The notes below the pieces were generated by a model, which saw nothing but the letters and a program-made list of their open reading frames with translations, searched no databases and was not told the origin of the DNA. From positions 62,001 through 126,000 of the forward strand of contig VGRJ01000001.1 in NCBI GenBank assembly GCA_016875405.1: 64,000 nt of DNA, in the 5' to 3' direction. Both the position numbers and the translations under genes were made by a program. Position 1 is the first letter of the stretch. Every line of letters begins with the position of its first letter. Positions 2,571 to 48,407 of the stretch are shown here, piece after piece. The stretch comes from Deltaproteobacteria bacterium (GTDB lineage Bacteria; Myxococcota_A; Polyangia; Polyangiales; Polyangiaceae).

Positions 2571-2691
2571 GACGTAGTGACGCGGCGAGCGGCGGGCGAC
2601 GGTCGCGAGAGCGGTTTGTCGGAGGCGGCTGCGCGCAAACGTCTACCTGAGAGCGGGCAGGTGTACTAGCCTCCTCGGCCTGGGTAGCGGC

Positions 2692-3861
2692 ATGCGCGCG
2701 TTCGGACGGATCCTCGGGTGTGCGGTGGCGGCAGCGACGACGCTCGTCGCCGGGGTGGCGTTCGCCGACAAGATGGACCCCGCGCTCGAGCGCTTCGTCC
2801 TCAACAACCGCTGCATCGGCACCGTCGACGGGGTCGGCAAGTACTACGACCCGACGGCAGGCTTCACGCGGTGCCTCCCGGACAACCTCGCGTTCGCGAA
2901 GCTCGTGGCGCAGTACGGCGCGGCGATCGCGCCGGTGGCGTCGTACTCGGCGCGCACCACCGGGTTCGGCGGGTTCAAGATCGGCGTGCAGGGCGCCTTC
3001 ACGACGATCGACTCGGACGCGCCCTACTGGAAGAACGGGACGCAGGGCTCTGTCGACCGCTCGACGAATCAGTACTCGATCGTGAACAACGGGCCCGACG
3101 ACGCGCTGCAGCTCTACTCGGTCCGGCTCGCGAAGGGCTTCCCGTTCGGCGTCGAGCTCGGCGCGAGCTTCGGACACCTCGCGAACACGTCGCTCGTCAC
3201 CGGCGGAGGGGATGTTCGGCTCTCGATCCTCGAGGGCTTCCGCACCAACTACGGGCTCGGTTACTTGCCCGACCTCGCCGCGACGGGCGGGATTCGGACG
3301 ATCACCGGCACGTCGCAGCTGAAGCTCACCGTCGTGTCGGTCGACGGCGTCATCTCGAAGCCCTTCCCAATCCAAGGCTCGGTCGTGCTGCAGCCGCACG
3401 TGGGGTACCAGTGGCTGCGGATCTTCGGTGATTCCGGCGTCGTGGACATGACGCCAAACACCGATCCGGTTCAGCACTGCGGGTATCAGGGCGACAACAG
3501 CCCCGCCTCTCCCGATCCGAGCAAGCCGGCTCGCGACGGGCAGCCCTACTGCTCGGGCTCGAGCGCCGACTTCAACAACAACGTGGTGTTCGACGCGGTC
3601 CGCTTGAACCGCCACCGCATCAACGTCGGCGTCGACCTGCGCTTTCAGATGGTCTACCTCGGGCTTAACTTCCTGACGGACCTCGTGCCGGTCGACAAGG
3701 CGAACACCGGCACGAAGGCGGTGCCGGACGGGGCTGACCCGAGCGCCTCAAAGACCATCGTCGTGAACCCCTACTCGGACGACCCGCGTCCGACGAGCCC
3801 CGAGAACGACGCGGTGAAGAGCCAGTTCACGATGTCGGTCGAGCTCGGCGCGGTCTTCTGA
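2692..3861 (+). CDS. Predicted outer-membrane protein with signal peptide
   Basis: A 389-residue protein with a clear Sec signal (basic start, then VAAATTLVAGVAFA, cleavage before DKMDPA near residue 25). The mature part alternates polar and aromatic residues in strand-like stretches and ends in SVELGAVF; a terminal Phe after an alternating strand is typical of beta-barrels inserted by BamA. Two early cysteines (NNRCIG and TRCLPD) and a later pair (HCGYQG, YCSGSS) could form disulfides. I do not recognise a named family. It is divergent from trmL with a 121-base gap that should hold its promoter. Confidence 0.72.
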   Translation: MRAFGRILGCAVAAATTLVAGVAFADKMDPALERFVLNNRCIGTVDGVGKYYDPTAGFTRCLPDNLAFAKLVAQYGAAIAPVASYSARTTGFGGFKIGVQGAFTTIDSDAPYWKNGTQGSVDRSTNQYSIVNNGPDDALQLYSVRLAKGFPFGVELGASFGHLANTSLVTGGGDVRLSILEGFRTNYGLGYLPDLAATGGIRTITGTSQLKLTVVSVDGVISKPFPIQGSVVLQPHVGYQWLRIFGDSGVVDMTPNTDPVQHCGYQGDNSPASPDPSKPARDGQPYCSGSSADFNNNVVFDAVRLNRHRINVGVDLRFQMVYLGLNFLTDLVPVDKANTGTKAVPDGADPSASKTIVVNPYSDDPRPTSPENDAVKSQFTMSVELGAVF

Positions 3862-3862
3862 G

Positions 3863-3872
3863 CGGGCGCCCG
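3863..3872. repeat. 10-bp perfect palindrome after the outer-membrane protein gene
   Basis: CGGGCGCCCG begins immediately after the stop codon at 3861 in the convergent gap before rnc. It could help stop transcription, but no T-run follows, so this is only a weak terminator candidate. Confidence 0.25.
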
Positions 3873-3935
3873 AGGCACGGCGCGGCCCCTGGAACATTCG
3901 CGGCGCCCTGTGAATCCGCGCGCGCTGCTGCGAGG

Positions 3936-4760
3936 TCATTCGGTCCGCGGTGTGTCCGTGGCTGATTCGAGCCCGAGGCCCTCGAGCGCCGCGCTCGCCG
4001 CAGCCTGCTCGGCGAGCTTCTTCGAGCGGCCCTGACCCGTCGCCCGCCAAGTGTACCGCACCGAGCCGTCCTCCGCCGTCTCGTCGGGCTCGGCGCCAGC
4101 CGTCGCGCCATCGAGGAGCACGAGGGTCACCTCGACCCAGAACTCACGCGCGTGAGGCGGCCCCTGCTCGGCCACCACGCGGTACCGCGGCGGGGCGAGA
4201 CCGCGCGCCTGCAAGTGCTCCTGCAGGCGGCTCTTGGCGTCTCGCTGAATGGCGCCCGCCCGCGCGAGCTCCTCGATGCGATCGCCGACGAGCAGCCGCA
4301 CGAGCCGGCGCACCTCGTCGAGGCCGCGGTCGAGATAGACGGCACCGACGAGCGCCTCGAGCGCGTCCGCGAGCACGTTGGGCCGGTCACGCTCACCGGT
4401 GGCGTCGGCTCCGCGGCCAAGGCGCAACGCTTGACCTAGATCAAGCTCGCTCGCAATCTCTGCGAGCGTGCGCGCGTTGACGAGCGAGGCCCGCATGAAG
4501 GTGAGCTGCCCCTCATCGAGATCCCCGCGCGTCGTGACGAGCAGCTCGCTCACCGCGAGACCGAGGACGGCGTCACCCAGAAACTCGAGCCGCTGGTTGT
4601 CGCGGATGGGCTCGGCGCCCGGGCCGCGCTGCTCGTTCGTGAGGCTCGGGTGGGTGAGGGCCTCGACGAGGTGCGGCGCGTTCACGTCGACCTCGAGCCG
4701 AGCTGCGATGCTCTCCGCGGCCGCGAGCCGGCGCGCCTCTCGTTCCTTCGGGTCCTGCAT
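3936..4760 (-). CDS. rnc: Ribonuclease III
   Basis: A 274-residue double-strand-specific endoribonuclease used in rRNA and mRNA processing. The catalytic signature RLEFLGDAVL lies at residues 57-66 (E59, D63) and the second metal-ligand pair is D132/E135 in ADALEALVGAVYLD. The C-terminal part from about residue 172 is a dsRNA-binding domain ending in the basic GQGRSKKLAEQAAASAA helix. I chose the ATG at 4760 (MQDPKERE); the ATG at 4811 adds 17 non-conserved residues. A short insertion (DGATAGAEPDETAEDGS) interrupts the dsRBD, and the C-terminus carries a small acidic tail. In many bacteria rnc neighbours era or lepB; here it stands alone, divergent from a membrane protein gene. Confidence 0.94.
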   Translation of the reverse strand: MQDPKEREARRLAAAESIAARLEVDVNAPHLVEALTHPSLTNEQRGPGAEPIRDNQRLEFLGDAVLGLAVSELLVTTRGDLDEGQLTFMRASLVNARTLAEIASELDLGQALRLGRGADATGERDRPNVLADALEALVGAVYLDRGLDEVRRLVRLLVGDRIEELARAGAIQRDAKSRLQEHLQARGLAPPRYRVVAEQGPPHAREFWVEVTLVLLDGATAGAEPDETAEDGSVRYTWRATGQGRSKKLAEQAAASAALEGLGLESATDTPRTE

Positions 4761-30191: not shown

Positions 30192-30199
30192 GGCCTCAC
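30188..30199. repeat. 12-bp palindrome holding two convergent stop codons
   Basis: GTGAGGCCTCAC is a perfect palindrome. Its left half carries the TGA stop of the aminotransferase (30189-30191) and its right half the TGA of the giant TPR gene on the other strand (30196-30198). Too short on its own to be a strong terminator. Confidence 0.5.
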
Positions 30200-33100
30200 T
30201 CGCTCGCCTTGAGCTTCGTCAAGAGCTCGTCGGCGACCGCGAGATCGGGCTCGGCCGCGAGCGCGCGCTCGAGGTTGTGAATCGCCTTCTTGGGGTCGTT
30301 CATCGCGACGAGCACCCGAGCCATGCCGAAGAACACGGCCGCCTTGCGCACGGCCCCGGCGTCGTCGAGGCGCTGGAGCAACAAGGCCTTGAAGGCCCCG
30401 TCAGCGCGCCGCAGGTGTTCGGCCTTCGCCTCTTCGTCGGTGGTGGTCTCGTAAAGGTCGAGAGAGAGCTCTCCGAGATCGGCCGAAACCTTGAGGTTCG
30501 AGGGGTCGAGTCTGCGGGCAGCCTCGAGCTCCGCGAGCGCAGCCCCGACGTCTCCCCGCGCCTGCTGAGCAGACGCGAGCCGCAAGTGGATCTCGGCGAG
30601 GTCCTTGCTCCGCTTCCCTCCGAAGGCTTCGACGACCTTCTGCAACATCCCGATCGCCTCGTCGGGGATCCCCGCAGCCGTGAAGGAGTCCGCAAGCTCG
30701 AGCATGATGTCACGGTTGTCGGACTGCAGCTCGAGTGCCCGCTCGAGGAGCCCCGCCGCCGCGACGTGGTCCTGACGCTTCGCGGCTTGGATGCCCGCCG
30801 CGCGGCGGTAGAGGAGGACGCGCTCGGCGTCGTCCTCGCCCTCGTCCGCGCGTCGTGCGACGAGATCGGCGAGAGCCTCGAGCCGCTCGAGCTTCAGGTA
30901 GAGCGCCTCGAGCGCCTCGCGAATGCTCTTGAGGTCGGCCGCAGAGAGGTCGGGGGTCGCCGCGGCGCCCTCGAGCACTCGGACGCCTGCCGCCTCGTCC
31001 GACTCGTAGAGGTCACGCGCTCGGAGCGCGAGGCGCGTGACGTCGGCGAGAGGCGCCCCGTCGAGGAGACGCTCGAGGGTCTCCGCAGCGTCGCTCGTGC
31101 GGCCTTGCTTCTCGTACAGTCGAGCGAGGGCCTCCCGCGCGGGCCGGTAGGACGGGTCGAGATCGAGCACCGCGAGGTTGCCGTCGATCGCGCGGTTCGC
31201 GTCGCCGAGGCGCGTATCGCAGATCTCGGCGAGCCGCAGTCGAAGCGAGAGCTCACCGTCCGGATCGCCCTGCTCACGAGCCACGTCGACCTGCCGCTCG
31301 AGCAGCTCGACGAGCTCCTCATCCCGACCGGTCTTCTCGAGAAGCTCGGAGAGGAGCTCGACCGCGCCGATGTGCCCAGGGATTTCTTCGAGGATCGCCT
31401 GCAGTTGCCCGATGGCTTCGCTCGGCGCGCCGAGCTCGATCTGCGAGATCGTAGCCGCTTCCATTCGAAGCTCCGCGCGATGCTCGAGGTTCTCCTCGCA
31501 ATCGACGAGACGCTCGAGCAGCCTCAGCAGATCTTCGTGCCGCCCATCCTTCAAGTAAAGGCGGCGTAGCGCTGCGGCAGCGGCCGCGTCAGACGAGTCG
31601 TCGTCGAAGGCCTGCTCGAGCAGCACGATCGCGCTCGCGGCGTCGTCGAGATCGTCCTCCGCGACGAGCGCCGTCTCGTGCCGAAGCACACGCAACACAT
31701 CGGACTCCGACGCGAGCTCGAGGCGTCGCTTCATGAGCGTGAAGCGCTCGGCATGGTCAGCCTTGGCGGCACACACGAGCGAGAGCTCCGCGAGCGCCCA
31801 ATCGTCGGAGTCGTACGCCTTCAGCATGTCGCGAAGGATCGCCTCCGTCAGCGAAGCGTCTGCGAGCGACTCCTCGGCGAGGGCCTTCGCCTCGCGACGC
31901 AGGTCGGAAGCCTCACGGTCCGTCGACGCCGCGCCGGAATCGACGAGATCGGCGAGCTTCCGCAGCGTCTCGACGAGGTCCCGATCACGCCCGTAGGCGC
32001 GCTGAAGCGCCTCGAGGCGCACGAGCGCCTCGCCTGCAGTCGGGTCCTCTGCGAGCGCCGCCGCGAGCGCGCGCTCGGCGTGCGACGGATCCTCGACGTT
32101 GTCCTCGAACCACGTCGCGATCCGAAGGTAGACGTCACGCGCGATGTCGGGCCTGACGCCTGCCGACCCCTCGGAGCCGCGCGTCGCCTCGATGGCGTTC
32201 ATGACGGCCTCACCTGCTCGGCGCCACGCCTCCGCGCCCGCCTCGCCTGAACCATTCAGCCCGGCCAGGCGCTCGAGGCGCTCGAGGAGCTCCTCGTCAG
32301 TCGGTCCGTCCGGCAGCGCATACTCCACGATGCGTTGGGCTGCGTCCGGATCCGCACCTTCGTCCTCGAGCATTTGCGCGAGGTCGAGCCGCAGACGGAG
32401 CCGCTCCGTGGCACTCTCGGTGAAGTCGATGCGCTTGTTCCGAAGGTTCACCCGAGCGTCGCCGTCGCCGAGTCGGCGGTAGAGCCCGTCGAGGACCTCG
32501 GCAACCGTGTCGAAGAGCGCTGGGTCACCGCTCAGCTCCTCGAGTCGCGCTCGCGCGCCCGCGTGCTCCGGATCCACCTCGAGAGCACGCTCGTACTGCT
32601 CGATGGCGCCGCGGGCATCGCGGAAGTGTCCGTGTCGAACGTCGCCGAGTCGATGGTGCAGCTCGGCCATCGCCCCCGCATCGCCCTCGCTCTCGAGACG
32701 ACGCTCGAGGACGGCGGCGAGCCGCTCGAAGTCGCTCGTCTCCGAGTAGAGCCGGTCGAGAGCCTCGAGGTAAACACCTGGCTCGTCGGCCTGATCAGCG
32801 GCCTTGCGGTACGCCTCGATCGCGCGCGGCTTGTCCTCGAGCTGCGACTCCGCGATGCGAGCGAGGCGAGCATAAAGCTCGGACTGGGTCGTCGCGTCGT
32901 ACACCTCTGGGCCGAGCTTCTGGAGCGTGTCCGCATAGGCTACGAAATCGCCCGTAGCCTCGCAGAGCCGCTCGATCTCCTCGTGGTGCGACTCGTCCGC
33001 GGTCGCGCCGTCCGCGTGGATTTCGACGAGCGCACGCAGCCGCGAGTCCCGTGCGCGGTCGAGCGCGTCGAGCTGCTCTTCCTGAATGAGCGCGATCTGG

Positions 33101-36100
33101 ATGAGCGTCGTGGCGCGCTCGACCGACTCGTGATGGGCGGTGACCCGCAGCTCGAGAAGATCAATGAGCTCCCAGAAGCGGCCCATGCTCGCGTAGATCG
33201 GCTCGAGCAGGACGGTGATCTCGAAGCGCAGGTCCTCGTGGTCGCGAGCGAGCTGATGCAGGGCCTTCAGCGCGTGACCGTCTTCGGGCACCTCCTCGAT
33301 GACCGCGCGATAGTGCTCGAGGGCGTCGGTCGTCTGCGCGAACGCCTGCAGACACAGGTCGCCAAGCCGATTGCGAAGCGCCGCGCGCTCTGACAGTTCG
33401 TCGGCGAGATCGGCCTGCGTGGTCAGGTTATCGAGGAGGTCGTTCCACCGCTCCGCGCCGCGATAGAGACGCTCGAGCCCAGCGAGGACGCCCGGATCCG
33501 TATGGAGGATGTCTCGGGCGAGCTCGAACATGCGGATTGCGTCGCTCGGACGCTCGAGCTCGCGCTCGTAGATCTCGGCCGCGTAAATGCTTAGCTCGAG
33601 ACGGCGATCATCATCGTCGGTGGTCGCATCGATGCGCTGCTCGACGAGCGCGACGAGGCGGCCTTGATCACGGGATCCATAGAGCCAAATGAGCCGGTCG
33701 AACGCGAACAACGACTGGTTGTCGAGGTCGACCGCTTTCTCGAGGACCACGATCGCCGACTCCTCGTCCCCGAGCATGTCCTGATGCACCTCGCCGAGGC
33801 GCTCGAAGATTTGGGCCTTCTCGTCGACGTGGTCGACGAGCTCAGCCCGCGCCGCGAGCACCCTCGTGAGGGTGTCCCAGTCGCCGAGCAGAACGCAGAG
33901 CTCGTCCATGCGCGCGACGGCGGCCTCGTCGGCCGGGTCGAGCGTCGAGACCTGCGCGAGGGCGGCAAGAGACCGGCGCGGATCGTCAAGACGCTGATCG
34001 CAAATGTTCGCGACGGACGAGAGCAAGCTCGCCTTGATAAGGGCCTCGTCGAGTCGAGCGGCCGCGGCTTCGTACGCCGAGGCGACCTTTTCCCAAGCCG
34101 ACGTCGCCTCCGCGAGGCGCTCGAGCTCTGCCAGGATTTCTTCCGAATCGGGAACGAGGTCGAAGGCGCGGAGCACAATCTCGAACGCAGCGGCCGCATC
34201 GCCGCCTCGCTTCTCGACGAGCCGCGCTGTCTCGACGTGGATCGCTGCCTGGTCGAGGGGATTGTCGGCGAGCGCGAGCCGGTGCTCCGAGAGAGCAATC
34301 AAGCTCTGCCAGTCGTCGTTCCGCTCGTGGAGCCCGCGAAGGATATCGACCACCGTCTCCTTGCGCGACGCGTCGTCGAGCATCTTCTCGAGCTCAGCAA
34401 CGGCCTCGCTGTGGTCGGGGAGCGACTCGACGATGAGCTGGAGTTGCTCGAGAGCGCGATCGCGATCGGCTGGGCGTCCCGCGAAGAGTCGAGCGAGCTC
34501 GAGCCGGTAGACCGCCGCTGCTTCCGGCGCGTGATGCATCTCGGCGCGACGCTCGTAGAGCTCTGCGAGGTCATCGTGCTTACCGGCGGCCTTGTAGAGC
34601 TCGGTCAACGTATCGAGCGCGGCGTCGTCCTCAGGGGCGAAGTCGAGCAAGTCACGAAGCGCGCTCATCGCGTCGTCGTCGCGTCCGAGGTCGCGCTGAA
34701 GCGAGGCGATGACGTGGTAGTAGGCGACGCGCTTCTCGGGCTCGACGGCAGAGTCGACGCCACGGAGGTAATGCGCGACGCGCTCCTCCTTGCGCTCGAG
34801 TGCGACGAGCAGCGAGTCGATTGCGACGAAGAGAGGCTCGCTCTCGGGGCTGAACTCGAACGCGCGTCGGTACCACGAGAGCGCGTCCACGTTGCGTCCC
34901 GCCATCGCGAACAGCTCGCCCGTCCGCTCGCTCAGCTGAGCGGTTTTACCGTCGTCCGAGGACACTCCGGCGAGGGCAGAGTCGAAGATCTCGGCGACTC
35001 GCTCCTCGGCGCCAGTCCCGATCAGGCGACCGAGGCTCTCGATCTTGTCCCAGATGCGCTCATCGCTCGGCTCCTCGCGAAGCAGACGCGCGACGGTCTC
35101 GAGGGCCATGCCGTAATCCTCGAGCTGCTCCTCGTAGTGCTGCGCGAGCTTCTGCAAGAGGAGTCCGCGCTCGCCGGGGTCGTCGCAGGTGTCGACGCGG
35201 GCCTCGAGCGCAACCTTGAGGCGCTCCCAGTTGGCGGTCGTCCGGTAGACCGGCTCGAGGGCACGCGCGACGTGAGCCTTCTGCTCGCTGTCGGTGACGG
35301 TCTCGAGGAGCGCCTCGAGCGCCTCGACCGCGCCGGAGTGCAGTGGCTCGAGCTCGAGCGCCGCGTCGAGCTCATCGAGCGCTCGGGCGAGGTCCTTCTG
35401 GTGCGTGACGAGGACCGCCGTCAGCTTGACTCGGAGATCGGCGATCGCCTTCCCCTTGGCCGAGTCGATCTGGCGCTCGAACAAACTGACGAGCGAGTCG
35501 AACTTTTGCTCGGTGCGGTAGAGGCCGTCGAGGGCCGCGACCGCCTCCGGGTCGAGGATGATTTCGAGTACGTCCTCGTAGGTACGGATCGCCGCGCCCT
35601 TGTCCGACAGCGGACCGGCCTGGAGCGCGCCGGCTCGAAGGAGCAGCGCGACGCGGGCGTCGTCCTGTGCCTGCTCCGCGCGCTGAACGAGGATCCCGAG
35701 CAGCGCAGCGTCGTCAGCCACCGCCGCGTAGAGCTCCTCGAGCGCAAGTAGGGCGGTCGCGTCATCGCTCACCGCATCGAGCGCCGCTCGGTAGTGCCCG
35801 ATGGCTCGGCGGTCGTCGCCCAGCTGCGCGCGGGCGAGCTCGGCCGCGCGGAGGCGGGTCGACTGTTGAACTTCGGAGTCGAGGATCTGCCCGAGCACGG
35901 CTTCAAAGAGCTCGAGCAGGTCGGCGTGACGCTTGGTGTTGTCCGCGAGCCGCTCGGCGTTGGCGATCCAGTGCGCGAGGTTCATCTCGCCTGCCGCCTC
36001 ACGTACGCCGCGCGCGGCGTAGTCGAAGGCCCGGGAGGAGTCGTCGAGGACGTCCTCGGCCGTGTTCAGCGCCCGCTCTAGGATCTCGAGCCGCTCGCTC

Positions 36101-39100
36101 GGCTCCTCGGTTGCGGCGACCTCGATGTCGAGGACGCGCAAGAGAGCCTCGGCGTTTCCGTCGGCTCGGAAGATCGGAGCGAGCGTCTGCGCCGCCTCCC
36201 GTCGCACCTCGGCGACTTCGTGCCCGAGGAGCGACTCGAGCCCGGCGCGCGCAGGCGCGTTCGTCGGATCGCGCTCGAGGACGGTGCGATACGACGCCAT
36301 CGCGCCCGAGGGGTCGGCGAGGCGCGCACGACGGACGTCGCCGAGGCGGACCTGGAGGTCCGTCGCATCCGCCGCGAGCGTAATCCACGTCTCGAGGACC
36401 TCGGCGAGCTCCTCGAAGCGCCCCGCCTTTTCCTGAAGGCGAGCGAGCGGGTCGAGCACGAGCGGCTCCGGCCCGAAGTCATCCTGCACCGCGCGCCAAG
36501 CTGCGATCGCGTCGGCGACCTCGTCGAGGCGGTCGCCGAGGACCTCGGCGCACTTCACCATGCAGCGCTTGCGCTCCTGCGGATGGTCGGTCGCCTGCTC
36601 GATACGACGAAGCGCATCGATGAGGTTACGCCACTCTTCGCTGTCGCCGTAGAGGCGCTCGAGCGACAGAAGCGCGACGAGATCGGTCGGTTCGTCCGCG
36701 AGGCGGGCGTTCCAGGAGACGATCGCGTTCGCGCGGTCGCTGAGCGCCTCCTCGTAGAGGGTCGCGATACGCTCGAAGAGGCGTGCGCGCTCGTCGGCCT
36801 CGTCCACGAGCTTGACCTCAATTCCGAGGACCACGACGAGGTTCGCGTGGTCGCCCCGCTTCGCGTAGATCGCCGCGAGGGCGCGTGCCGCCGGAATGAC
36901 GAGCTCGGGGTCGGCCGGATCGATTTCGAGTGCTTCCTTGAGGAGCCCCTCGGCGCGGACATCGTCTTCGAGATCGCGCTCGCACACCTGCGCCGCGGCC
37001 ATCAGGATCTCGCCACGAGCCTGCGCGCTCTGGCAGCGCTTGGCAGCCTCGGTCAGCCCATCGGCGACCTCCGCATACGACCCCGTACGCTGACCGATCT
37101 GCAAGAAACGCTCTCGAACCGAGGCGTCCTCGGGCTCGAGTGGGACGAGCCGACGGAGGGCCGCGAAGGCTCCGGGGTCGTCCCGGAGCCGCTCGTCGCG
37201 CAAGGTCGCCACGCGGCGGAGTAGCTCGCGACGATCGTCGTCCGAGAGCTCGGCCTCGAGGCGAACCCCAAGGATTCGCACGAGGTCGCGGATCTCGCCG
37301 CGCGCATCGTAGACGCCGTCGAGGAGCAGCGCCGCAGGCTGCCGGAGCTCTTCGACCGCGAGGCACTCCTCGGCGAGCTCTCGGGCTTCCGAGTGATCGT
37401 GGTGTCCCTCGAGGACGGCCGAGAGATGAGCCATGACGCGCGCGGTCTGCTTGAGCGCGTGGAGGTAGAGATCGACGAGGCGGATTCGAAGCGTCACCGC
37501 GTCCTCTTCGGACGCCGTCTCGAGGCTCCGCTCGAGGAGCGCCGCGAGCTCCGTAAAGCGCTCGTTGCGGACGTACAGTCGATCGAGGGACTCGGTGGCC
37601 TCGCTGTGGAGCGGATCGAGCCCCGCGATGCGCTCGAAGTAGCCGATCGCACGGCCGTCATCGCTCATGAGCTCCTCGGCGAGGAGCGCCACCTGGTGCA
37701 GGTGCTCGACCTTCGTGAGATCGTCCTCGGCGGTCTCGATCGCGCGGAGGTAGAGACCCTCGAGGTCCGACCAGCGCTCGGCGCCGGTGAGGATCGCCTT
37801 CAGGCGCGAGAAGGCGCCGTCGTGCTTCGGATCGAGATCGAGCACCACTTGCAGGTAAGGCGCCGCCCCTTCCGGATCGGAGAGGTGCTCCTCGTGCAGG
37901 GTCGCTGCGCGATCGCAGAGATCGATGCGCAGGTCGCGCTCGAGCTCCGGGGCGCGCTTGGCGCCCTCGCCGACCGTGCGGGCGTAGGCGTTGGCCAGGT
38001 CCTTCGTGCGCCCCGAGAGGCCGGCGAGGCGAGAGGCGCTGTCCCACAGGGAGAGCTCTGCCGGTGCCTCGGCCAGCGCCGAGAGCACCACGTCGAGGGC
38101 CGCCCCGCGGTCCTCGAGCTCCGTCTCGAGAGCCTCCGCGAGCGATCGGAAGAGCTCGAGACGACGATCCGCCTGGTCCTCGTGCTCGAGGAGGACCCGC
38201 AACACGCGAGCGCGATCGCCGGCGTTGCCCTTGCGGCCGTGGTACTCTTCGAGCACCGAGGCGGCCCGAGCGCGGACAGCCCCGGGCTTTGGCTCGAGTC
38301 CTTTCGGGAGGGGCCCGGCGAGCGTCTCGAGAAGCGCGATGGCACGGCCATACTCGGCATCGATCTCGAGCGCGCGAACGCACGCGTCGAAGGCCTCGAC
38401 AGGCGCGTCGAGCCGCTCAAGGTAGAGGGCCGCAAGGGCGGTCTCGAGACGGACGCGCGCGTCGCCGACCTCGGCATCGCGGTGAGCCTGCATGACCTCC
38501 GCGGCGCGCTTGAATTTGCCGGCAGCCGCGAGGAGCCGCGTAAGCTCGGCGAGCGAGCCCGTACGCGACGCGTCGAGAGCGAAAACTCGCTCGAGGAGGT
38601 CGACGGCGCGCTCGGGCTCGCCGAAGACGTCCTGCTCGACCTGCGCCCACTCTTCGAGTGCCTCGATCTGCGCATAGCCCTGGAACCGAGAAGCCTTGAT
38701 CTCGAAGAGCCAGCGGAGATCCTCCTTGCGCGCGTTGCTGCGAAGGAGCTGCTCGAACGTAGCGACGGTCTCGGTATCGGCCGGATCGGCGTCGACGAGC
38801 TTACGGTAAATGGCGACGGCGTCGTCCGTCTTGCCGAGGTGCGTGGCGTAGACGTCGGCGAGCTTCGCCTCGACCTCCCGCGACGCCGCGATAGAGAGCC
38901 CGGCCTCGCCGAGCTTGGCCTTCAGCACCTCGACGAACGACGACCAGTCACCCGAGAGCTGCGACCACTCGCGAAGTCGCTCGAGCCCCGCCTCGTCGCG
39001 CCGCAGCTCGTAGGCCTGACGCGCGTACTGAAGCGCGGCATTCTTGTTCGCGAGCTGCCCGCCCGCGATCGACGCCATCTTCTCGAGGATGGCGATCTTC

Positions 39101-41532
39101 TCGTCGACGTCGCTGGTCGCCTCGAGCAAAATTCCGTGAAGGCCCGGCAGGCGCGACCACTTGGAGTCCGCCTCGTAGATGGGCAAGAGGGCACGCGCGG
39201 CGTCGATGTTCTTCGGCTGTGCCGCGAGGACACGCTCGAAGGAGCGTGCGGCCCGCTCGGGCGCGGAGAGCTGACTCTCGTAGATGCGCGCGGCGCGGAA
39301 CGACAGCGCCACCTTGTCGGGCTGGGCCTCGGTGCGATCGGCCGTCGTCGAGAGGAAGTCCGCAAGCCCCTCGTAGTCGTCCTGCGAGCCGTAGAGCTCT
39401 TCGAGGCCGTCCCAGTCGCGCGCCTCGACCAAGGCCTGGCGGAGCACGCGGAGGGCGCGGGTGTGTCCCGGCGAGAGGTCGAGCACCCGTCGCCAGGTTC
39501 GCAGCGACGCAGGGAAATCGTTCATCTTCTCGGCCTGGAAAGCGCCGAGCTTCTGCAAGAGCACGACCTTCTTCTCGGCGTCGCTCTCGGCGATGCGCGC
39601 CTCGAGGACAAACGCGGATGTCGCGAAGTCCTTCTGCCGCTCCGCTTGCTTCTCGAGCGCGTCGAGCACGCCTTCGGCTTCGGGAGCCTCCTCGAGGATC
39701 GTCTTCCACAGACGGATCGACTCTTCGCCCTTGTCGAGGCGCTCAGCCGCGAGCTTCGCCATCTCGCGCAAGATTCGGATGCGCTCGTCGCCGGTGGCCG
39801 CCTCGAGCTGCTTCTCGTAGAGCTCGTAGAGCTTCGGCCAAGTGCGGCGCTTCTGATAGAGGTCGACGAGCTGCTCGCGGGCCTCGGCGTCGTCGCCGGT
39901 GGACTCGAGCAACGCCTCGTAGGCGGCGATGGCGTTCTGGACATTCGAGAATTGCTCGAGCCACCGACGCGCAACGGCGCGCAGCAGCTCGATGCGTTCG
40001 CTCGGATCCGCGGTGATGTCAGCGAGCTTCTGCTGCGCCCCGAGGAGATCACGCCAGCGGCTTAGCGTCTCGTAGACCTTGATGACGTCGCGCACCGCCT
40101 CGACGTCGCGCTCGTCGATCTGGAGGATCTGCGTGAGCACGGTGAGGAGCGCGGTGTCGCTCTTCATGCGATCGCGGTAGAGTTCGGCCATCTGCCGAAG
40201 CACCGCGATGCGGCCTGCGGCGTCCTCCTTGGGCAAGCGCTGGAGGTCCTGACGCAACAAGTCGACGAGCGCGTGGTAGGCCTCGGTCTGGAGGTAGAGC
40301 TTCTTCAGCTTCTCGCGCGCATCTTCGTCGTTCGGGTCGGTTCGAAGCGCAGCCTTGTACTGATCGATGGCGCGCTTCGAGTTGTCCTGACTCTCCGCGA
40401 GCGCGGCGATTTCATCGGTCAGCTTGCGCTTCCACTCGTCGTCGGTCGAAGCCCGTTGGGCGTCGGTGAGCACGGCGATGAGGCGCCCCGCGTCTCCTTT
40501 GGACGAGTAGCGCTCGCGGAAGAATCGCAGCATCCCGAGGTGTGCGGGCTCACCCTTGCGGACCTTCTCGAAGTAGGGCTCCGCGGCTTCGGGGTTGCCG
40601 AGTGCCTGCCAGTGCAGCATCGCGATCTGCACCCAGATGGCGAACTCCTCGGCTTGCTTCACGGTCCCGCTCGAGAGCATGCGCTCGTAGACCGCGACGA
40701 GCGGCTGCCAGGACTCGTTCTGCGTGTAGTGCTCGCGGAGCCAGTCGACCGCGATCGCGTTCCCGGGCTCGAGCTCGATCACCTTCTCGTGGGCTCGGAT
40801 CGACCCCTCGGCGTCGTCGAGGCGCGTCCGATGGATTTGGGCGGCGTGCGCCGCAGTCGCGATCTTGTCGGCGCGCGTCGGCAGGACGTCTGCCAGCCGA
40901 CCGAGGGCCCGCGCGGCGTCGTCCCAGCGCTCGAGCTCCTCGTAGACGACCGCCGCGAGCGCGCGCGCGCGTCGGTTGTCCCCGTCGCCGGCCAGGGCGC
41001 GCTCGAGGAAGTCTGCGACGCGCTTCACGTTGGTTTCGATGCGGGGTGCGTGACGCAAGGTGGTGTCGGCGGCAGCCACGAGGAACCGCGCGCGACGACC
41101 GTCGTCGTCGGCTTCGGTCGCGTCGAGCATCAGTTGCTCGACCGTCGCTTCCCAGGTCTCGCGTTGGGCGAGGATGTCCGCGATCGCGGCCTTCGCGCTC
41201 GCGTCGTCGGGGCGCGCGTCGAGGGCGCTGCGATAGGCAACGAGCGCGTCGTCGTCACGGTAGAGCTCTTCGTGAAAGATCCGCGCGCGTTGGAGCTGCT
41301 TCGAGGCGACCTGCGCGTCGCCTTGGACGACCTTGAGCTCGAACTCGAGGAGCTTCGTCGCAGCCACCCAGGAGCGCTGCTTCTCGAGCTCGAGCCGTGA
41401 GCGCTCGAGCTCCCGCACGACGGCGTCTCCCTCACCTTCGGCCACCGCCTCCTCGATCTGCGACCAAGCAGCAGAATCGTTGGGGTCCGAGATCAGTGCA
41501 ACGAGGGCGGTACGCAGCGTATCGAGGCTCAT
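30196..41532 (-). CDS. Giant TPR protein, about 3,778 residues
   Basis: One uninterrupted frame of 11.3 kb. I start at the ATG at 41532 (MSLDTLRTALVALI) because GGAG lies 5 bases upstream; a GTG six bases earlier is also in frame. No signal peptide or transmembrane segment is seen, so the protein is probably cytoplasmic. It consists almost wholly of TPR-like helical pairs. The unit reads roughly LxxLYxxxxxWxxLxxxYE, then ERIxLLRxxAxLxxxxLxDxxxAIxxYxxxLxxxPxDxxA; three successive units from about residue 413 measure 74, 72 and about 73 residues, so about fifty could fit. The end is a canonical TPR (AIHNLERALAAEPDLAVADEL). Rich in Asp and Glu. No catalytic domain was recognised. Likely a scaffold; partners unknown. 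Divergent from acs. Confidence 0.9.
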   Translation of the reverse strand: MSLDTLRTALVALISDPNDSAAWSQIEEAVAEGEGDAVVRELERSRLELEKQRSWVAATKLLEFELKVVQGDAQVASKQLQRARIFHEELYRDDDALVAYRSALDARPDDASAKAAIADILAQRETWEATVEQLMLDATEADDDGRRARFLVAAADTTLRHAPRIETNVKRVADFLERALAGDGDNRRARALAAVVYEELERWDDAARALGRLADVLPTRADKIATAAHAAQIHRTRLDDAEGSIRAHEKVIELEPGNAIAVDWLREHYTQNESWQPLVAVYERMLSSGTVKQAEEFAIWVQIAMLHWQALGNPEAAEPYFEKVRKGEPAHLGMLRFFRERYSSKGDAGRLIAVLTDAQRASTDDEWKRKLTDEIAALAESQDNSKRAIDQYKAALRTDPNDEDAREKLKKLYLQTEAYHALVDLLRQDLQRLPKEDAAGRIAVLRQMAELYRDRMKSDTALLTVLTQILQIDERDVEAVRDVIKVYETLSRWRDLLGAQQKLADITADPSERIELLRAVARRWLEQFSNVQNAIAAYEALLESTGDDAEAREQLVDLYQKRRTWPKLYELYEKQLEAATGDERIRILREMAKLAAERLDKGEESIRLWKTILEEAPEAEGVLDALEKQAERQKDFATSAFVLEARIAESDAEKKVVLLQKLGAFQAEKMNDFPASLRTWRRVLDLSPGHTRALRVLRQALVEARDWDGLEELYGSQDDYEGLADFLSTTADRTEAQPDKVALSFRAARIYESQLSAPERAARSFERVLAAQPKNIDAARALLPIYEADSKWSRLPGLHGILLEATSDVDEKIAILEKMASIAGGQLANKNAALQYARQAYELRRDEAGLERLREWSQLSGDWSSFVEVLKAKLGEAGLSIAASREVEAKLADVYATHLGKTDDAVAIYRKLVDADPADTETVATFEQLLRSNARKEDLRWLFEIKASRFQGYAQIEALEEWAQVEQDVFGEPERAVDLLERVFALDASRTGSLAELTRLLAAAGKFKRAAEVMQAHRDAEVGDARVRLETALAALYLERLDAPVEAFDACVRALEIDAEYGRAIALLETLAGPLPKGLEPKPGAVRARAASVLEEYHGRKGNAGDRARVLRVLLEHEDQADRRLELFRSLAEALETELEDRGAALDVVLSALAEAPAELSLWDSASRLAGLSGRTKDLANAYARTVGEGAKRAPELERDLRIDLCDRAATLHEEHLSDPEGAAPYLQVVLDLDPKHDGAFSRLKAILTGAERWSDLEGLYLRAIETAEDDLTKVEHLHQVALLAEELMSDDGRAIGYFERIAGLDPLHSEATESLDRLYVRNERFTELAALLERSLETASEEDAVTLRIRLVDLYLHALKQTARVMAHLSAVLEGHHDHSEARELAEECLAVEELRQPAALLLDGVYDARGEIRDLVRILGVRLEAELSDDDRRELLRRVATLRDERLRDDPGAFAALRRLVPLEPEDASVRERFLQIGQRTGSYAEVADGLTEAAKRCQSAQARGEILMAAAQVCERDLEDDVRAEGLLKEALEIDPADPELVIPAARALAAIYAKRGDHANLVVVLGIEVKLVDEADERARLFERIATLYEEALSDRANAIVSWNARLADEPTDLVALLSLERLYGDSEEWRNLIDALRRIEQATDHPQERKRCMVKCAEVLGDRLDEVADAIAAWRAVQDDFGPEPLVLDPLARLQEKAGRFEELAEVLETWITLAADATDLQVRLGDVRRARLADPSGAMASYRTVLERDPTNAPARAGLESLLGHEVAEVRREAAQTLAPIFRADGNAEALLRVLDIEVAATEEPSERLEILERALNTAEDVLDDSSRAFDYAARGVREAAGEMNLAHWIANAERLADNTKRHADLLELFEAVLGQILDSEVQQSTRLRAAELARAQLGDDRRAIGHYRAALDAVSDDATALLALEELYAAVADDAALLGILVQRAEQAQDDARVALLLRAGALQAGPLSDKGAAIRTYEDVLEIILDPEAVAALDGLYRTEQKFDSLVSLFERQIDSAKGKAIADLRVKLTAVLVTHQKDLARALDELDAALELEPLHSGAVEALEALLETVTDSEQKAHVARALEPVYRTTANWERLKVALEARVDTCDDPGERGLLLQKLAQHYEEQLEDYGMALETVARLLREEPSDERIWDKIESLGRLIGTGAEERVAEIFDSALAGVSSDDGKTAQLSERTGELFAMAGRNVDALSWYRRAFEFSPESEPLFVAIDSLLVALERKEERVAHYLRGVDSAVEPEKRVAYYHVIASLQRDLGRDDDAMSALRDLLDFAPEDDAALDTLTELYKAAGKHDDLAELYERRAEMHHAPEAAAVYRLELARLFAGRPADRDRALEQLQLIVESLPDHSEAVAELEKMLDDASRKETVVDILRGLHERNDDWQSLIALSEHRLALADNPLDQAAIHVETARLVEKRGGDAAAAFEIVLRAFDLVPDSEEILAELERLAEATSAWEKVASAYEAAAARLDEALIKASLLSSVANICDQRLDDPRRSLAALAQVSTLDPADEAAVARMDELCVLLGDWDTLTRVLAARAELVDHVDEKAQIFERLGEVHQDMLGDEESAIVVLEKAVDLDNQSLFAFDRLIWLYGSRDQGRLVALVEQRIDATTDDDDRRLELSIYAAEIYERELERPSDAIRMFELARDILHTDPGVLAGLERLYRGAERWNDLLDNLTTQADLADELSERAALRNRLGDLCLQAFAQTTDALEHYRAVIEEVPEDGHALKALHQLARDHEDLRFEITVLLEPIYASMGRFWELIDLLELRVTAHHESVERATTLIQIALIQEEQLDALDRARDSRLRALVEIHADGATADESHHEEIERLCEATGDFVAYADTLQKLGPEVYDATTQSELYARLARIAESQLEDKPRAIEAYRKAADQADEPGVYLEALDRLYSETSDFERLAAVLERRLESEGDAGAMAELHHRLGDVRHGHFRDARGAIEQYERALEVDPEHAGARARLEELSGDPALFDTVAEVLDGLYRRLGDGDARVNLRNKRIDFTESATERLRLRLDLAQMLEDEGADPDAAQRIVEYALPDGPTDEELLERLERLAGLNGSGEAGAEAWRRAGEAVMNAIEATRGSEGSAGVRPDIARDVYLRIATWFEDNVEDPSHAERALAAALAEDPTAGEALVRLEALQRAYGRDRDLVETLRKLADLVDSGAASTDREASDLRREAKALAEESLADASLTEAILRDMLKAYDSDDWALAELSLVCAAKADHAERFTLMKRRLELASESDVLRVLRHETALVAEDDLDDAASAIVLLEQAFDDDSSDAAAAAALRRLYLKDGRHEDLLRLLERLVDCEENLEHRAELRMEAATISQIELGAPSEAIGQLQAILEEIPGHIGAVELLSELLEKTGRDEELVELLERQVDVAREQGDPDGELSLRLRLAEICDTRLGDANRAIDGNLAVLDLDPSYRPAREALARLYEKQGRTSDAAETLERLLDGAPLADVTRLALRARDLYESDEAAGVRVLEGAAATPDLSAADLKSIREALEALYLKLERLEALADLVARRADEGEDDAERVLLYRRAAGIQAAKRQDHVAAAGLLERALELQSDNRDIMLELADSFTAAGIPDEAIGMLQKVVEAFGGKRSKDLAEIHLRLASAQQARGDVGAALAELEAARRLDPSNLKVSADLGELSLDLYETTTDEEAKAEHLRRADGAFKALLLQRLDDAGAVRKAAVFFGMARVLVAMNDPKKAIHNLERALAAEPDLAVADELLTKLKASE

Positions 41533-41749
41533 GCTCACTCCGGCTTGAAACGGCCATGACCCCGCGTTCCCCCGAGAAATTTCACGGGTGGGTGCGGGAT
41601 GGACCCGGCATTAAACCTGCCCTCCGAGAGGGTTGCAACGGGGTCCCGGGCTCTCATGATCCGGGTCGATGCCGAACGGGCCGAAGCCCCTGTCGGACGC
41701 ACTCGAGACGCTATCGAAGGGCGCTCGTTCGGGGTTAAATCGCGCCCCG
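41533..41749. other. Divergent intergenic region between giant TPR gene and acs
   Basis: This 217-base stretch must hold promoters for both genes. A small hairpin (CCCTC-CGA-GAGGG) lies at 41620-41632. I looked for sigma-70 or sigma-54 boxes and found none convincing. In-frame starts for acs at 41669 would occupy the right part. Confidence 0.4.
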
Positions 41750-43744
<1,995 letters not shown>

Positions 43745-43777: not shown

Positions 43778-44854
43778 ATGCGTCGGGGGTTCAACGTCCA
43801 CCGCGTTGGGGCGTCGTTCGTCCTCGCGTCCTCGCTCCTCGCGACGGCGGCGAGCGCCGCGGACCCCTGTCCACCGCACCCGGCCTCCACGGCACCTGAG
43901 GACCTCACCACGGCGCGCAAGCACATGGCGGCGGGCGTGGCCTTCATGCAGGACCCGGAGGGTGCTCGCTGCGAGGAAGCCTACCCACAGTTCGCTAAGG
44001 CCTACGAGCTCTCAGGCTCGCTCAATGCCCTCCAGAACATGGCGATCTGCGCGGCGAAGCTCGAGCTCGACGGCGAAGCGATCGCCTGCTTCGAGCGCTA
44101 CCTCGAGCGCAAAGGCGCCGACATCGCGGCCGAGGACAAACAACAGGTCGAGAACGATCTGCGAGGGCTGAAGGCCGCGATCGCTCACGTCACGTTCAGC
44201 TCCGATCTCCCGGGGGTCACCATCCAAGACACGCGCACCCCACGCCGCGGCCCCGAGGTGCGCAACACCTACAAGCTAGGCTCGACCAAGCTGCGCCTCG
44301 GGGTCCACCCCGGAGACCACTCCTTCGTGGCGCAGGCGAAAGGGCACCCGGATCAGAAGTGGACCATCGAATTGAAGAGCGGCGACAAGCTCTCGAAGGA
44401 GTTCCTCTTCGACGTGGGCAAGCCGGTCACCGCGGAGGGCTTCACCGAGTCCGACGCCGGGCGTCGAAGGGCCGCGCTCAGCTACACGAGCGAGCCCGCG
44501 ACGAATCATGGACTCCCGGCATCGTTCTGGGTCGCAGGGAGCCTCACCCTCGCCGCGGCGACCGGGTGGGCGGTGACGGGTGCGCTCGCGCTCAAGCGAG
44601 GCTCCGAGTACGAGGCGACGAATACCCTCTCGAACGCCGTGGCGGGTGTCGACCTTGCGCGCGAGCACGATGACGTCAAGGCGCTGAACCTGAGCGCCGA
44701 CGTGCTCATGGGTGTGACGTTGGCCGGCGCAGTCACGACCGTCGTCCTCGGGCTCACGAGCTCGAGCGTGGAGCCGTCCTCGAGCGCCCACCTGACGCTC
44801 CTTCCCGTCTGGACGGAGCGCGCGGTCGGAGCGTCGCTCGTCGGACAATTCTGA
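43778..44854 (+). CDS. Secreted TPR/PEGA-like membrane protein
   Basis: A 358-residue protein with signal peptide (GASFVLASSLLATAASAAD). A short TPR-like region follows (CEEAYPQFAKAYELSGSLNA; AIACFERYLERKGADIAAED), then a beta-rich PEGA-like domain (about 140-220: VTFSSDLPGVTIQD, KLRLGVHPGDHSFVAQAKGH), then two hydrophobic segments (FWVAGSLTLAAATGWAVTGA; LMGVTLAGAVTTVVLGL). This layout recurs in myxobacteria near Ser/Thr kinases. The kinase gene begins 13 bases downstream, so they probably form an operon. Confidence 0.76.
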   Translation: MRRGFNVHRVGASFVLASSLLATAASAADPCPPHPASTAPEDLTTARKHMAAGVAFMQDPEGARCEEAYPQFAKAYELSGSLNALQNMAICAAKLELDGEAIACFERYLERKGADIAAEDKQQVENDLRGLKAAIAHVTFSSDLPGVTIQDTRTPRRGPEVRNTYKLGSTKLRLGVHPGDHSFVAQAKGHPDQKWTIELKSGDKLSKEFLFDVGKPVTAEGFTESDAGRRRAALSYTSEPATNHGLPASFWVAGSLTLAAATGWAVTGALALKRGSEYEATNTLSNAVAGVDLAREHDDVKALNLSADVLMGVTLAGAVTTVVLGLTSSSVEPSSSAHLTLLPVWTERAVGASLVGQF

Positions 44855-44867
44855 GCGAGGACGTCGC

Positions 44868-46130
44868 GTGACCATTGAAGAAGGGACGCTCGTCGCGCAG
44901 CGCTTTCGGGTGCTCGGGCTGCTCGGCAAGGGCGGCATGGGCGAGGTCTTCGCTGCCGAGAACACCCGCACCGGGCGGCGAGTCGCGCTCAAGGTCCTGC
45001 GACCAGAGTCGAAGGACAAGCAGACGGCCGTCGAGCGCTTCCGTCGCGAAGCACGGGCGGCAGGGGCTATCCGCAGCGAGTTCGTCACCGAGGTCTACGA
45101 CGTCGAGGAAGACGCCGAGCATGGGATCGTGCTCGTGTTCGAGCTGCTCGAAGGGGAGTCGCTCGTCGATCGGCTGAAGCGTACGGGGCCGATGCCGCTG
45201 GTCGAGCTGTGGGGGGTCGTCGAGGCGGTCTGGGTGGGGCTCGCGGACGCGCACGCCGCGGGCATCATCCACCGAGACCTCAAGCCGTCGAACGTCTTCC
45301 TCCTCACGAAGACGTCGCCCGCGCGCGTCAAGCTCCTCGACTTCGGCATCTCGAAGCTGCCGAAAGCGATCACCACCGATAGCCTGACGCAAGTCGGGCA
45401 GAGCCTCGGAACCTTCTCGTTCATGCCGCCGGAGCAAATCGGGCGCGCCAAGACGGTCGATCACCGCGCAGACATCTACGCCTGCACCACGCTGATCTAC
45501 CAGGCGCTGACGGGCAAGCTCCCGTACCTCGCGAAGAACGCCGTAGTGATGATGGAGCTGAAGTTGCGACAGGATCCGCTGACGCTCGCTGACGCGGTCG
45601 GCGCGCCGGTCGATCCACGGCTCGAGGCCTTTGTCGCGCGGGGCCTCGCGCGCGACCCGGACACTCGCTTCCAGACGGCGAACGAAGCTCTCGTCCAGTG
45701 GCAAACGCTGCGCCCATCCGACGCCGTGTCGTTCGTCGCGTCGGCGAGCCAAAACAGAGGCTCGGCGGCGATGACGGAGCCTACCCCGAGCGAGGAGAAC
45801 TCGCAGACGGATGCGGGCACCCGACGACGCTCGCTCCCCGACTCGACTCAGGCGATGCCGGTGCTCGTCGAACCGCGGCCGTTGCAGCGCCCCGACGAGG
45901 ATGTCTCGACCCTTCAGCGCCCATCGACCGCGATGTCCATCACGCCGCAATCCGCGCCGTTCGCGGCCCCGGCGCCGGCGCCACGCGCGCCGGAGACCTC
46001 TCGCCCCGCCCTTCCCTCGACGAGCGCACCTGAGCGGCGCCAGTCGCTCGTAACGATGGCCGCAGCAGCGGTCGCGCTGATGCTCCTCGGGTTCGGGATC
46101 GTCGCGCTCGCGCTCCGCTTCCTGCGCTGA
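44868..46130 (+). CDS. Tail-anchored Ser/Thr protein kinase
   Basis: A 420-residue Hanks-type kinase starting at a GTG (44868). Gly-rich loop LLGKGGMGEVF (about 18-28), VALK Lys42, catalytic loop IIHRDLKPSN (D137, K139, N142), DFG at 158-160, activation segment with GTFSFMPPEQIG, and RADIYACTTLIYQ. A Pro/Ser/Ala-rich linker (about 285-385) leads to one C-terminal transmembrane helix (MAAAAVALMLLGFGIVALAL) with only a few residues beyond, so there is no extracellular sensor domain. It likely signals from the inner face of the membrane, possibly with the upstream PEGA-like partner. Confidence 0.95.
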   Translation: MTIEEGTLVAQRFRVLGLLGKGGMGEVFAAENTRTGRRVALKVLRPESKDKQTAVERFRREARAAGAIRSEFVTEVYDVEEDAEHGIVLVFELLEGESLVDRLKRTGPMPLVELWGVVEAVWVGLADAHAAGIIHRDLKPSNVFLLTKTSPARVKLLDFGISKLPKAITTDSLTQVGQSLGTFSFMPPEQIGRAKTVDHRADIYACTTLIYQALTGKLPYLAKNAVVMMELKLRQDPLTLADAVGAPVDPRLEAFVARGLARDPDTRFQTANEALVQWQTLRPSDAVSFVASASQNRGSAAMTEPTPSEENSQTDAGTRRRSLPDSTQAMPVLVEPRPLQRPDEDVSTLQRPSTAMSITPQSAPFAAPAPAPRAPETSRPALPSTSAPERRQSLVTMAAAAVALMLLGFGIVALALRFLR

Positions 46131-46198
46131 GTTGTCGGCGGCGCTTGCATCGGGCTCGCGGGCGAGACTAGGTTTCCGACGAAGCTGGGGAATATCGC

Positions 46199-46477
46199 GT
46201 GGGTCTCAAGCAAATTCACCTGCGGATCTACGGGCGCGTGCAGGGCGTCTACTACCGTGCGTCGGCGCAACGAGAAGCCAAGCGCCTCGGGCTCACCGGC
46301 TGGGTGAAGAACCGGAAGGACCTGTCGGTCGAGCTCGTCGCCGAAGGCGAAGAGACCGGCATCAAGGACCTGGTCGCCTGGGCCCACCATGGCCCAGGAG
46401 CCGCGCGCGTGGAGCGTGTCGACGTTCGTTGGCGAAGCTTCATCGGCGATTTCTTCGACTTCCGCATCCTCGAGTGA
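46199..46477 (+). CDS. acyP: Acylphosphatase
   Basis: A 92-residue enzyme hydrolysing acyl-phosphates. Starts at a GTG (46199, reads GLKQIHLR). The phosphate-binding GRVQGVYYR (R20) and the catalytic Asn38 in GWVKNRKD are intact; the usual NxxDG has Leu in place of Gly here. The fold-closing VERVDVRW strand is present. Its 3' end overlaps an open frame of the next gene, whose true start is 46560. Confidence 0.93.
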   Translation: MGLKQIHLRIYGRVQGVYYRASAQREAKRLGLTGWVKNRKDLSVELVAEGEETGIKDLVAWAHHGPGAARVERVDVRWRSFIGDFFDFRILE

Positions 46478-46559
46478 CTCCTCGCCGGCGTCGATCGACG
46501 CCAGCGACTACTTGATGATCGTCAATCCGAAGCGCTGCGAACGAGCGACGGACCACGAC

Positions 46560-48407
46560 ATGCGACGGCCCCTCTGGCTCCTGCTGCTCTCGCTGACGCA
46601 CGCGGTCCCGGCGAGTGCCGACTCGCCAGCGGCGGCGGTCGAGATCCCGCTGCCCGAGCTCCCACCGCTCCCGGCGCTCGAGCATCCGTCTCCGTCGCCC
46701 GCCGCGGTACAAGCGCTCGATGCGCGTCTGGAGCAGCTGCTCGCCCTTCACGTCAAGCATCCGCTCGAGCCACGGGTCGACCTCGGGTTCCTCTCGTCCG
46801 AGCTCGACGAGGAGTCGGTCCTGGCGATCGCGCAGCGCCTCGAGCAGCTGCGCCGCGGGCTCGATGGTCGCGCGGCCACGGGGCTGCTCGAGCGGGCGCG
46901 GAAGGAAGGCGCGAAGTCCCTCGATCGCCGAAGGAAGGGCCGCAAGACCGCCGAGAAGACCGAGGGCGGAGGGCAAGACGCTGGAAAGAGAGAGCCGCCG
47001 CCCGCCACGAGTGACGAGGGCACGAGCGAGGGAGATGGGGATTGGCTCCAGTTCGCGCTCGCCCTCGATCGAGGCGACGACCCCGCGTGGCGCGATCTCG
47101 TGCACCTCTACGGGATGCTTCGGATGCTCGAGGCGCTCGGGACGACCGCCGCGGTCCGGGAGCTCGTGAACGCCTACAGCTACTTCGGCGAGCTCGTCCG
47201 CATCGATCTGCAGCGCACCCTCTTGCGGCTCAAAGACAAGGCCGTCCCAGCGCTGATCGAGGCGCGCGAGCACGACGCCAAGAAGGTCCGCGACTGGTCA
47301 CGGCGCACGCTCGAGGGAATGGGCCGAGCGATCCCGGGCGAAGCGATCGCGACCACCGACCCGGCCGTCCTCGCCGACGTGCTCCTCGCCTTCGGCCGCG
47401 TCAAAGACATCGACGCCACGAGGGTGATCCTGAGCTTCGTCGCGAGCGAGCGAGTCCACCTTCGGCGAGCTGCGCGCCAAGCGGTAGGAGCGCTCGGCGA
47501 CGCCGCGGTATGGCATCTGAAGGACGCGTACGAGAGCGTCACCGGCGACAAGCCGCCACGCGCGTGGGATCACCGAAGGCTCGCTCAAGAGCTCTTTCGC
47601 GTTCACGACCGTTCGCGCGCGACCGCCGTCTTCGAGCTGATGGCGCAGGGCCTCGAGCTCGCGAGGAAGGGCAGCACCGCCGAAGCCATTGCGGCCTACG
47701 ACCAGGTCCTCGCGCGCGCCCCGCTGTTCGAGCGCCGCAAAGAGATGGCGCCGACCTACGTCGCGCACGCGACCGCCCTCGAGTCCTCCGACGAGCACGC
47801 AGAGGCTCTCGTGGCGCTCCGCAAGGCGCTTCGTCTCGACCTCGACTCGCCCGACCGAGTGCGCATCGAAGCGCGCATCGCGTACCTCGAGGGGCGCATG
47901 CTCGCCGACAAGGGGACGCCGGATCTCTTCATCCTTCGGCGCGCCGTCGAGCTCGACCCGAACAACCGCGACGCACGCGAGCTCTTGAAGACCCTCGAGG
48001 AGCGCGCAGCCCACGTCGAACGAGCGACGAAGCGCTACGTCGCGGCCGGGGCGATCGGACTCTTCGCTGCGATGGCGATGGTCTGGCTGGCCCGCCGCCG
48101 GCCGAGCGCGTCTTCGAAGGGCATGACCAAGCCCCCATCGCCGGCCCCTGCACCAGAGGACTCCGGCGCGCTGCGGCACTCAGCGGCCATTGAGCCCGCG
48201 CATCACGATGCGTCGAGGCTGACGACGGTTGAGCTGAGCGAGGGCACTCGACCGAGCGAGGACGAGCGTCCCACGATCGCCGAGGGCTCGCCCTCGTTGG
48301 ATGCCGCGGAGGCCGTCGCCGAGGCCGCGACGAGCCTGCTTCCGGAAGCCGCGGTCGAGGCGCCGAGCTCCCCTCGAGATCCGAGCGAACCGGCCTCAGG
48401 TCGCTGA
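46560..48407 (+). CDS. Membrane protein with HEAT/TPR-like repeats, function unknown
   Basis: The frame is open from 46389, but the ATG at 46560 starts a good signal peptide (RRPLWLLLLSLTHAVPASAD), giving 615 residues. A charged, low-complexity stretch (about 125-165, Lys/Arg/Glu-rich) precedes HEAT-like helices (LIEAREHDAKKVRDWSRRTL; RAARQAVGALGDAAVWHLKD) and TPR-like repeats (LARKGSTAEAIAAYDQVLAR). One transmembrane helix (YVAAGAIGLFAAMAMVWLA, about 533-551) is followed by an acidic cytoplasmic tail. Family not recognised. It ends at a strong hairpin. Confidence 0.7.
   Translation: MRRPLWLLLLSLTHAVPASADSPAAAVEIPLPELPPLPALEHPSPSPAAVQALDARLEQLLALHVKHPLEPRVDLGFLSSELDEESVLAIAQRLEQLRRGLDGRAATGLLERARKEGAKSLDRRRKGRKTAEKTEGGGQDAGKREPPPATSDEGTSEGDGDWLQFALALDRGDDPAWRDLVHLYGMLRMLEALGTTAAVRELVNAYSYFGELVRIDLQRTLLRLKDKAVPALIEAREHDAKKVRDWSRRTLEGMGRAIPGEAIATTDPAVLADVLLAFGRVKDIDATRVILSFVASERVHLRRAARQAVGALGDAAVWHLKDAYESVTGDKPPRAWDHRRLAQELFRVHDRSRATAVFELMAQGLELARKGSTAEAIAAYDQVLARAPLFERRKEMAPTYVAHATALESSDEHAEALVALRKALRLDLDSPDRVRIEARIAYLEGRMLADKGTPDLFILRRAVELDPNNRDARELLKTLEERAAHVERATKRYVAAGAIGLFAAMAMVWLARRRPSASSKGMTKPPSPAPAPEDSGALRHSAAIEPAHHDASRLTTVELSEGTRPSEDERPTIAEGSPSLDAAEAVAEAATSLLPEAAVEAPSSPRDPSEPASGR

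Follow-up and report, generated by a model that had tools for sequence, protein, structure and literature searches.

A known giant tetratricopeptide repeat (TPR) protein of the myxobacteria is GltI/AgmK (MXAN_4863), a component of the gliding machinery of Myxococcus xanthus with a length of 4,132 aa (PMC3169522). GltI homologues 'in several copies' have been on record since 2011 (Luciano et al.). Our literature search for a second giant TPR protein returned no paper and no functional description. In the following we describe such a protein, A, and compare it to a second giant, B, which is likely the counterpart of GltI/AgmK in the same genome.

The gene for A lies at 30196..41532 on the minus strand of the window, i.e. 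the whole stretch of 64,000 nucleotides from a member of the Polyangiaceae that was analysed here. The frame is open without interruption over 30196-41538 on that strand. As a GGAG is located 5 bases 5' of the ATG at 41532 and the orthologues share the same start point, we assigned a product of 3,778 aa (420 kDa, pI 4.7). A scan for signal or transmembrane segments found none: the top Kyte-Doolittle 19-mer of the whole protein reaches 1.33 and TPR-like helices extend from end to end. The initial annotation had described a single TPR protein of about 3,778 residues without signal or membrane domain, which the intact frame, the hydropathy values and the profile matches given below bear out. Full-length, co-linear orthologues with 22-63% identity rule out that A is an artefact or a shadow ORF, and since almost all genomes of the order encode a colinear protein of ~3,780 aa, as do Bradymonadales, it is not an assembly artefact either. 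Antisense ORFs reach at most 890 aa within the window. The giant gene of some relatives faces an antisense frame longer than 3,600 codons (L027:7709-19162 and L033:4458-15470); the long antisense frames of several relatives were discarded as a by-product of high GC. Such frames could misdirect automatic gene callers.

Three Pfam profiles matched A well above their curated cut-offs and place it in the TPR repeat superfamily: TPR_8 with 77 bits (cut-off 25.7), TPR_19 with 75 (25) and TPR_6 with 65.7 (26.3). The best NCBIfam matches, PrsT (TIGR02917) and MamA (NF040959), were obtained through the TPRs, and we rejected both assignments because the scores fall far short of the equivalog thresholds, with 177 for PrsT (cut-off 312) and 144 for MamA (200). 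The repeat period had been estimated by eye as 72-74 residues, corresponding to two TPRs. The autocorrelation of a profile of 31 orthologues agrees with this estimate, with a sharp peak at lag 72 and weaker ones at lags 34 and 38, so that each 72-residue unit consists of two hairpins of unequal length. A unit HMM places ~50 units of 72 residues with four helices each and thus ~200 helices overall. The AlphaFold models, which cover residues 1-1100 and 2650-3778, are all helical (pLDDT 88.4 and 89.0) and confirm tandem antiparallel helical hairpins with helix lengths of roughly 14, 13, 14 and 18 residues per unit; with a pTM of 0.41-0.44 their long-range shape is unreliable. The top Foldseek matches of the models were TTC21/IFT-A (IFT139), Ski3 and Ctr9, plus OGT. 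TTC21/IFT139, Ski3 and Ctr9 are long eukaryotic TPR superhelices which hold multi-subunit machines; however, they are shorter than A and the likeness is one of fold only (~10-14% identity, TM-scores 0.10-0.17). A sequence search of the PDB returned only designed TPRs and the like.

Enlarged units of 85-98 residues recur every 240-380 residues, or every 4-5 units, and their positions are kept across the orthologues. One of them, an 85-residue unit with an extra helix, covers residues 652-737 (39322..39579, minus strand) and further enlarged units start near residues 1023, 1342, 1720, 2027, 2336, 2713 and 2952. The extra helix often shows an LEP[IV]Y-like motif in both A and B. An HMM of the motif was not selective, and conservation at the extra helix was no higher than in the rest of the protein. 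TPR superhelices complete one turn per ~7-8 TPRs, and by analogy with this established turn length the enlarged units may mark superhelical turns. The protein ends in a conserved C-terminal module of 321 residues with a F[RK]ALLLQKL-type motif (30199..31161, minus strand), which is kept in the A orthologues and stands in place of the C-terminal domain of B.

The initial annotation had presented A as standing alone. This did not hold, as the same genome has B in a glt operon and related genomes have a further family, C. B (L011:2542-14091, 3,849 aa) is similar to A in size and architecture and ends a gene row that encodes a TPR protein (506 aa), a small secreted protein (90 aa), an FHA protein (666 aa), another TPR protein (367 aa) and B itself. 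The B loci of relatives show the full row, with a GltD-sized TPR protein of 1,205 aa and an FHA protein bearing a TonB C-terminal domain. Except for the TPR gene at the gltH position, the row agrees with the gene order gltD-E-F-G-H-I and the architectures published for Myxococcus (PMC3169522). Because B closes a gltE-F-G-like operon we consider it the likely GltI/AgmK orthologue, an assignment made from gene order and architecture rather than from the M. xanthus sequence. The B proteins share a distinct conserved non-TPR domain of the 'LVLFSISEEYFQLRQ' type at their C-terminus. We also observed a shorter GltI-like protein of 1,473 aa (L013, contig G000:C83, 4615-9036), which is 63% identical to the C-terminal 450 residues of B, and a GltG-like TonB C-terminal fragment on the same contig (C83:38-838). 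This contig possibly carries a second glt-like cluster.

Like GltI/AgmK, A belongs to the ~4,000-aa class of giant TPR proteins and has no signal or membrane segment. Via B the likeness extends to a co-linear core and to the spacing of the enlarged units. The core is located at 35917..40236 (minus strand), where A residues ~433-1872 correspond to B residues ~463-1882 with a near-constant offset, and the first four enlarged units are spaced by 371, 319 and 378 residues in A and by 372, 304 and 377 in B. Aligning the two profiles gave the in-register solution as the best one, with a score of 2941 compared to 2522 for the next register. A common register over the whole length is true in part only: the windowed comparison recovered the common core and a match of A ~3025-3744 to B at an offset of about -484, with the stretch between them shifted. 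This mixed register outside the core suggests block duplications since the split. In the core tree, computed in one FastTree run on repeat sequences that did not include M. xanthus GltI, A and B form separate groups with several classes in each, and family C nests with A. As both clades span several classes the A/B split appears to be old. These comparisons make A and B paralogues of ancient origin, and the same single run on repeat sequences indicates that their common ancestor was probably already very long. There are also clear differences from the GltI/AgmK group. A is not encoded together with gltD-E-F-G, the glt-type neighbours belonging to B; in this tree it stands, together with C, apart from the glt-linked B proteins; and it does not have the C-terminal non-TPR domain common to the B proteins.

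Family C is defined here as a third giant TPR group with 2,600-4,300 aa, found in some Polyangiaceae and Sandaracinaceae (L088-L093 and L095-L099). It resembles A in the tree grouping and in a similar C-terminal end, whereas its length varies widely compared to the steady length of A. In the genome of the window no giant frame of this family was found. The phylum as a whole has three or more families of giant TPR proteins. TPR proteins of 1,500-2,000 residues are numerous in it as well, and several of them have the C-terminal domain of B.

Relatives of A are widespread. The N-terminal 1,500 residues found a match at E <= 1e-60 in 92 of the 97 genomes of the same order; a weaker match, taken alone, may stem from a paralogue. 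The profile of the C-terminus scored at least 249 bits in 58 of the 70 phylum genomes that are at least 98% complete. The matches from one scan of genome contigs include Lujinxingia (Bradymonadales) and MAGs, with no Myxococcus sequence among them. The A family is spread over most predatory-type Myxococcota. Among 31 orthologues with identities as low as 22% the length is 3,781 ± 72 residues, and insertions of whole units are rare, with 145 residues in L036 and 69-76 residues in six distant orthologues. A and B occurred together in almost all nearly complete genomes tested. The 3.3-Mb genome G001 (98% complete, 30 contigs) contains B and gltG (L094, contig C27); we looked for A in this genome and did not find it despite the completeness, so A is not obligatory for the B/glt machine. 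Two genomes with an apparent A but no B (G135 and G216) were not accepted as such. Both have gltG, in G135 at 377 bases from the contig end, and B was probably lost to assembly gaps.

The two neighbours named in the initial annotation were found as described: an acs-type acetyl-CoA synthetase is divergent from A (41669..43744, plus strand) and a class IV aminotransferase (PF01063; 29325..30191, plus strand) is convergent with it, with 4 bases between the ends. The acs gene is not conserved beside A outside the genus, whereas the aminotransferase is the sole A neighbour kept across several families. In 10/10 loci (L035-L044), which represent four families of the order, it lies directly 3' of A on the same strand, with a gap of -3 to +118 bases. 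The window and one other class likewise have it next to A. Several relatives, as well as Bradymonadales, have no such gene beside A. Scored against specific family models, the aminotransferase stays below all equivalog cut-offs. Upstream, many of the loci L035-L044 have genes for HMG-CoA lyase and for a small membrane protein. The region adjoining acs in the window (43778-48407) encodes an uncharacterised secreted protein of 358 aa, a Ser/Thr protein kinase of 420 aa and a TPR/HEAT-like protein of 672 aa. In no relative examined did A lie within a glt or agl locus, and there are no motility genes near it.

We propose, with about an even chance of being right, that A is a cytoplasmic superhelical protein-protein scaffold of the GltI type, perhaps for the same motility/envelope machinery. 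The architecture supports a predicted cytoplasmic TPR scaffold well and agrees with the superhelical, scaffold-like protein envisaged at the outset; the role beside GltI is a hypothesis that draws on paralogy and co-occurrence. Like GltI, A would keep several partners attached along its length at the cytoplasmic face of an envelope machine, for which the gliding/focal-adhesion apparatus or a related Glt/Nfs-type complex is the most likely candidate. The enlarged units would mark the turns of the superhelix and thereby provide spaced docking sites. The position of A outside the glt/agl loci and the genome with B and gltG but without A count against a GltI-like role, and the co-occurrence with B may come from shared descent alone. 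We consider it unlikely that A goes further and acts throughout the phylum as a second master scaffold for the surface-motility/polarity machinery of myxobacteria, with ~100 hairpins and extra-helix docking sites about once per turn that would bind a fixed set of partners in constant order; its position away from the glt loci would then explain why it has been overlooked.

The absence of A from glt loci and the genome with B and gltG but without A, together with the conserved aminotransferase 3' of A, would also fit a scaffold that has nothing to do with motility and organises a metabolic or regulatory complex in the cytoplasm. The aminotransferase would then be its dedicated partner or the product of a co-regulated gene. 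We regard this as less likely: the two genes are convergent in the window, the aminotransferase is missing from several of the relatives' loci and those of Bradymonadales, the model scores leave its type unsettled, and a 420-kDa scaffold for a single small enzyme would be odd. Given the number of giant and shorter TPR proteins in the phylum, A could also be just another product of a lineage-specific expansion of TPR proteins, in part redundant with B and C and without a single fixed function. Its retention with its own length and termini throughout the order (92/97 genomes at E <= 1e-60) and in other classes makes this quite improbable. The strongly conserved length, compared to ~2,600 to 4,300 in family C, could be expected of a molecular ruler or counter in which the repeat number sets a length. 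However, whole-unit gains do exist, the ends of A have no anchor domains and no filament or tube-building genes are found nearby. The initial annotation had mentioned a counter, and as no data here point to a counter or ruler we think this explanation very improbable.

A is best filed as an uncharacterised new addition to a known kind of giant TPR protein and not as a GltI orthologue. Its novelty is weakened, since the family to which it belongs as a paralogue already has a member, of the GltI/AgmK type, that is characterised in part. Among the components of the Myxococcus gliding machine, GltI/AgmK is one of the largest and one of the most poorly understood. In most Polyangia and Bradymonadia two or more paralogous giants are retained at full length, with a common core and conserved helix-insertion points, and the pair A and B gives a comparative handle on what such scaffolds bind.
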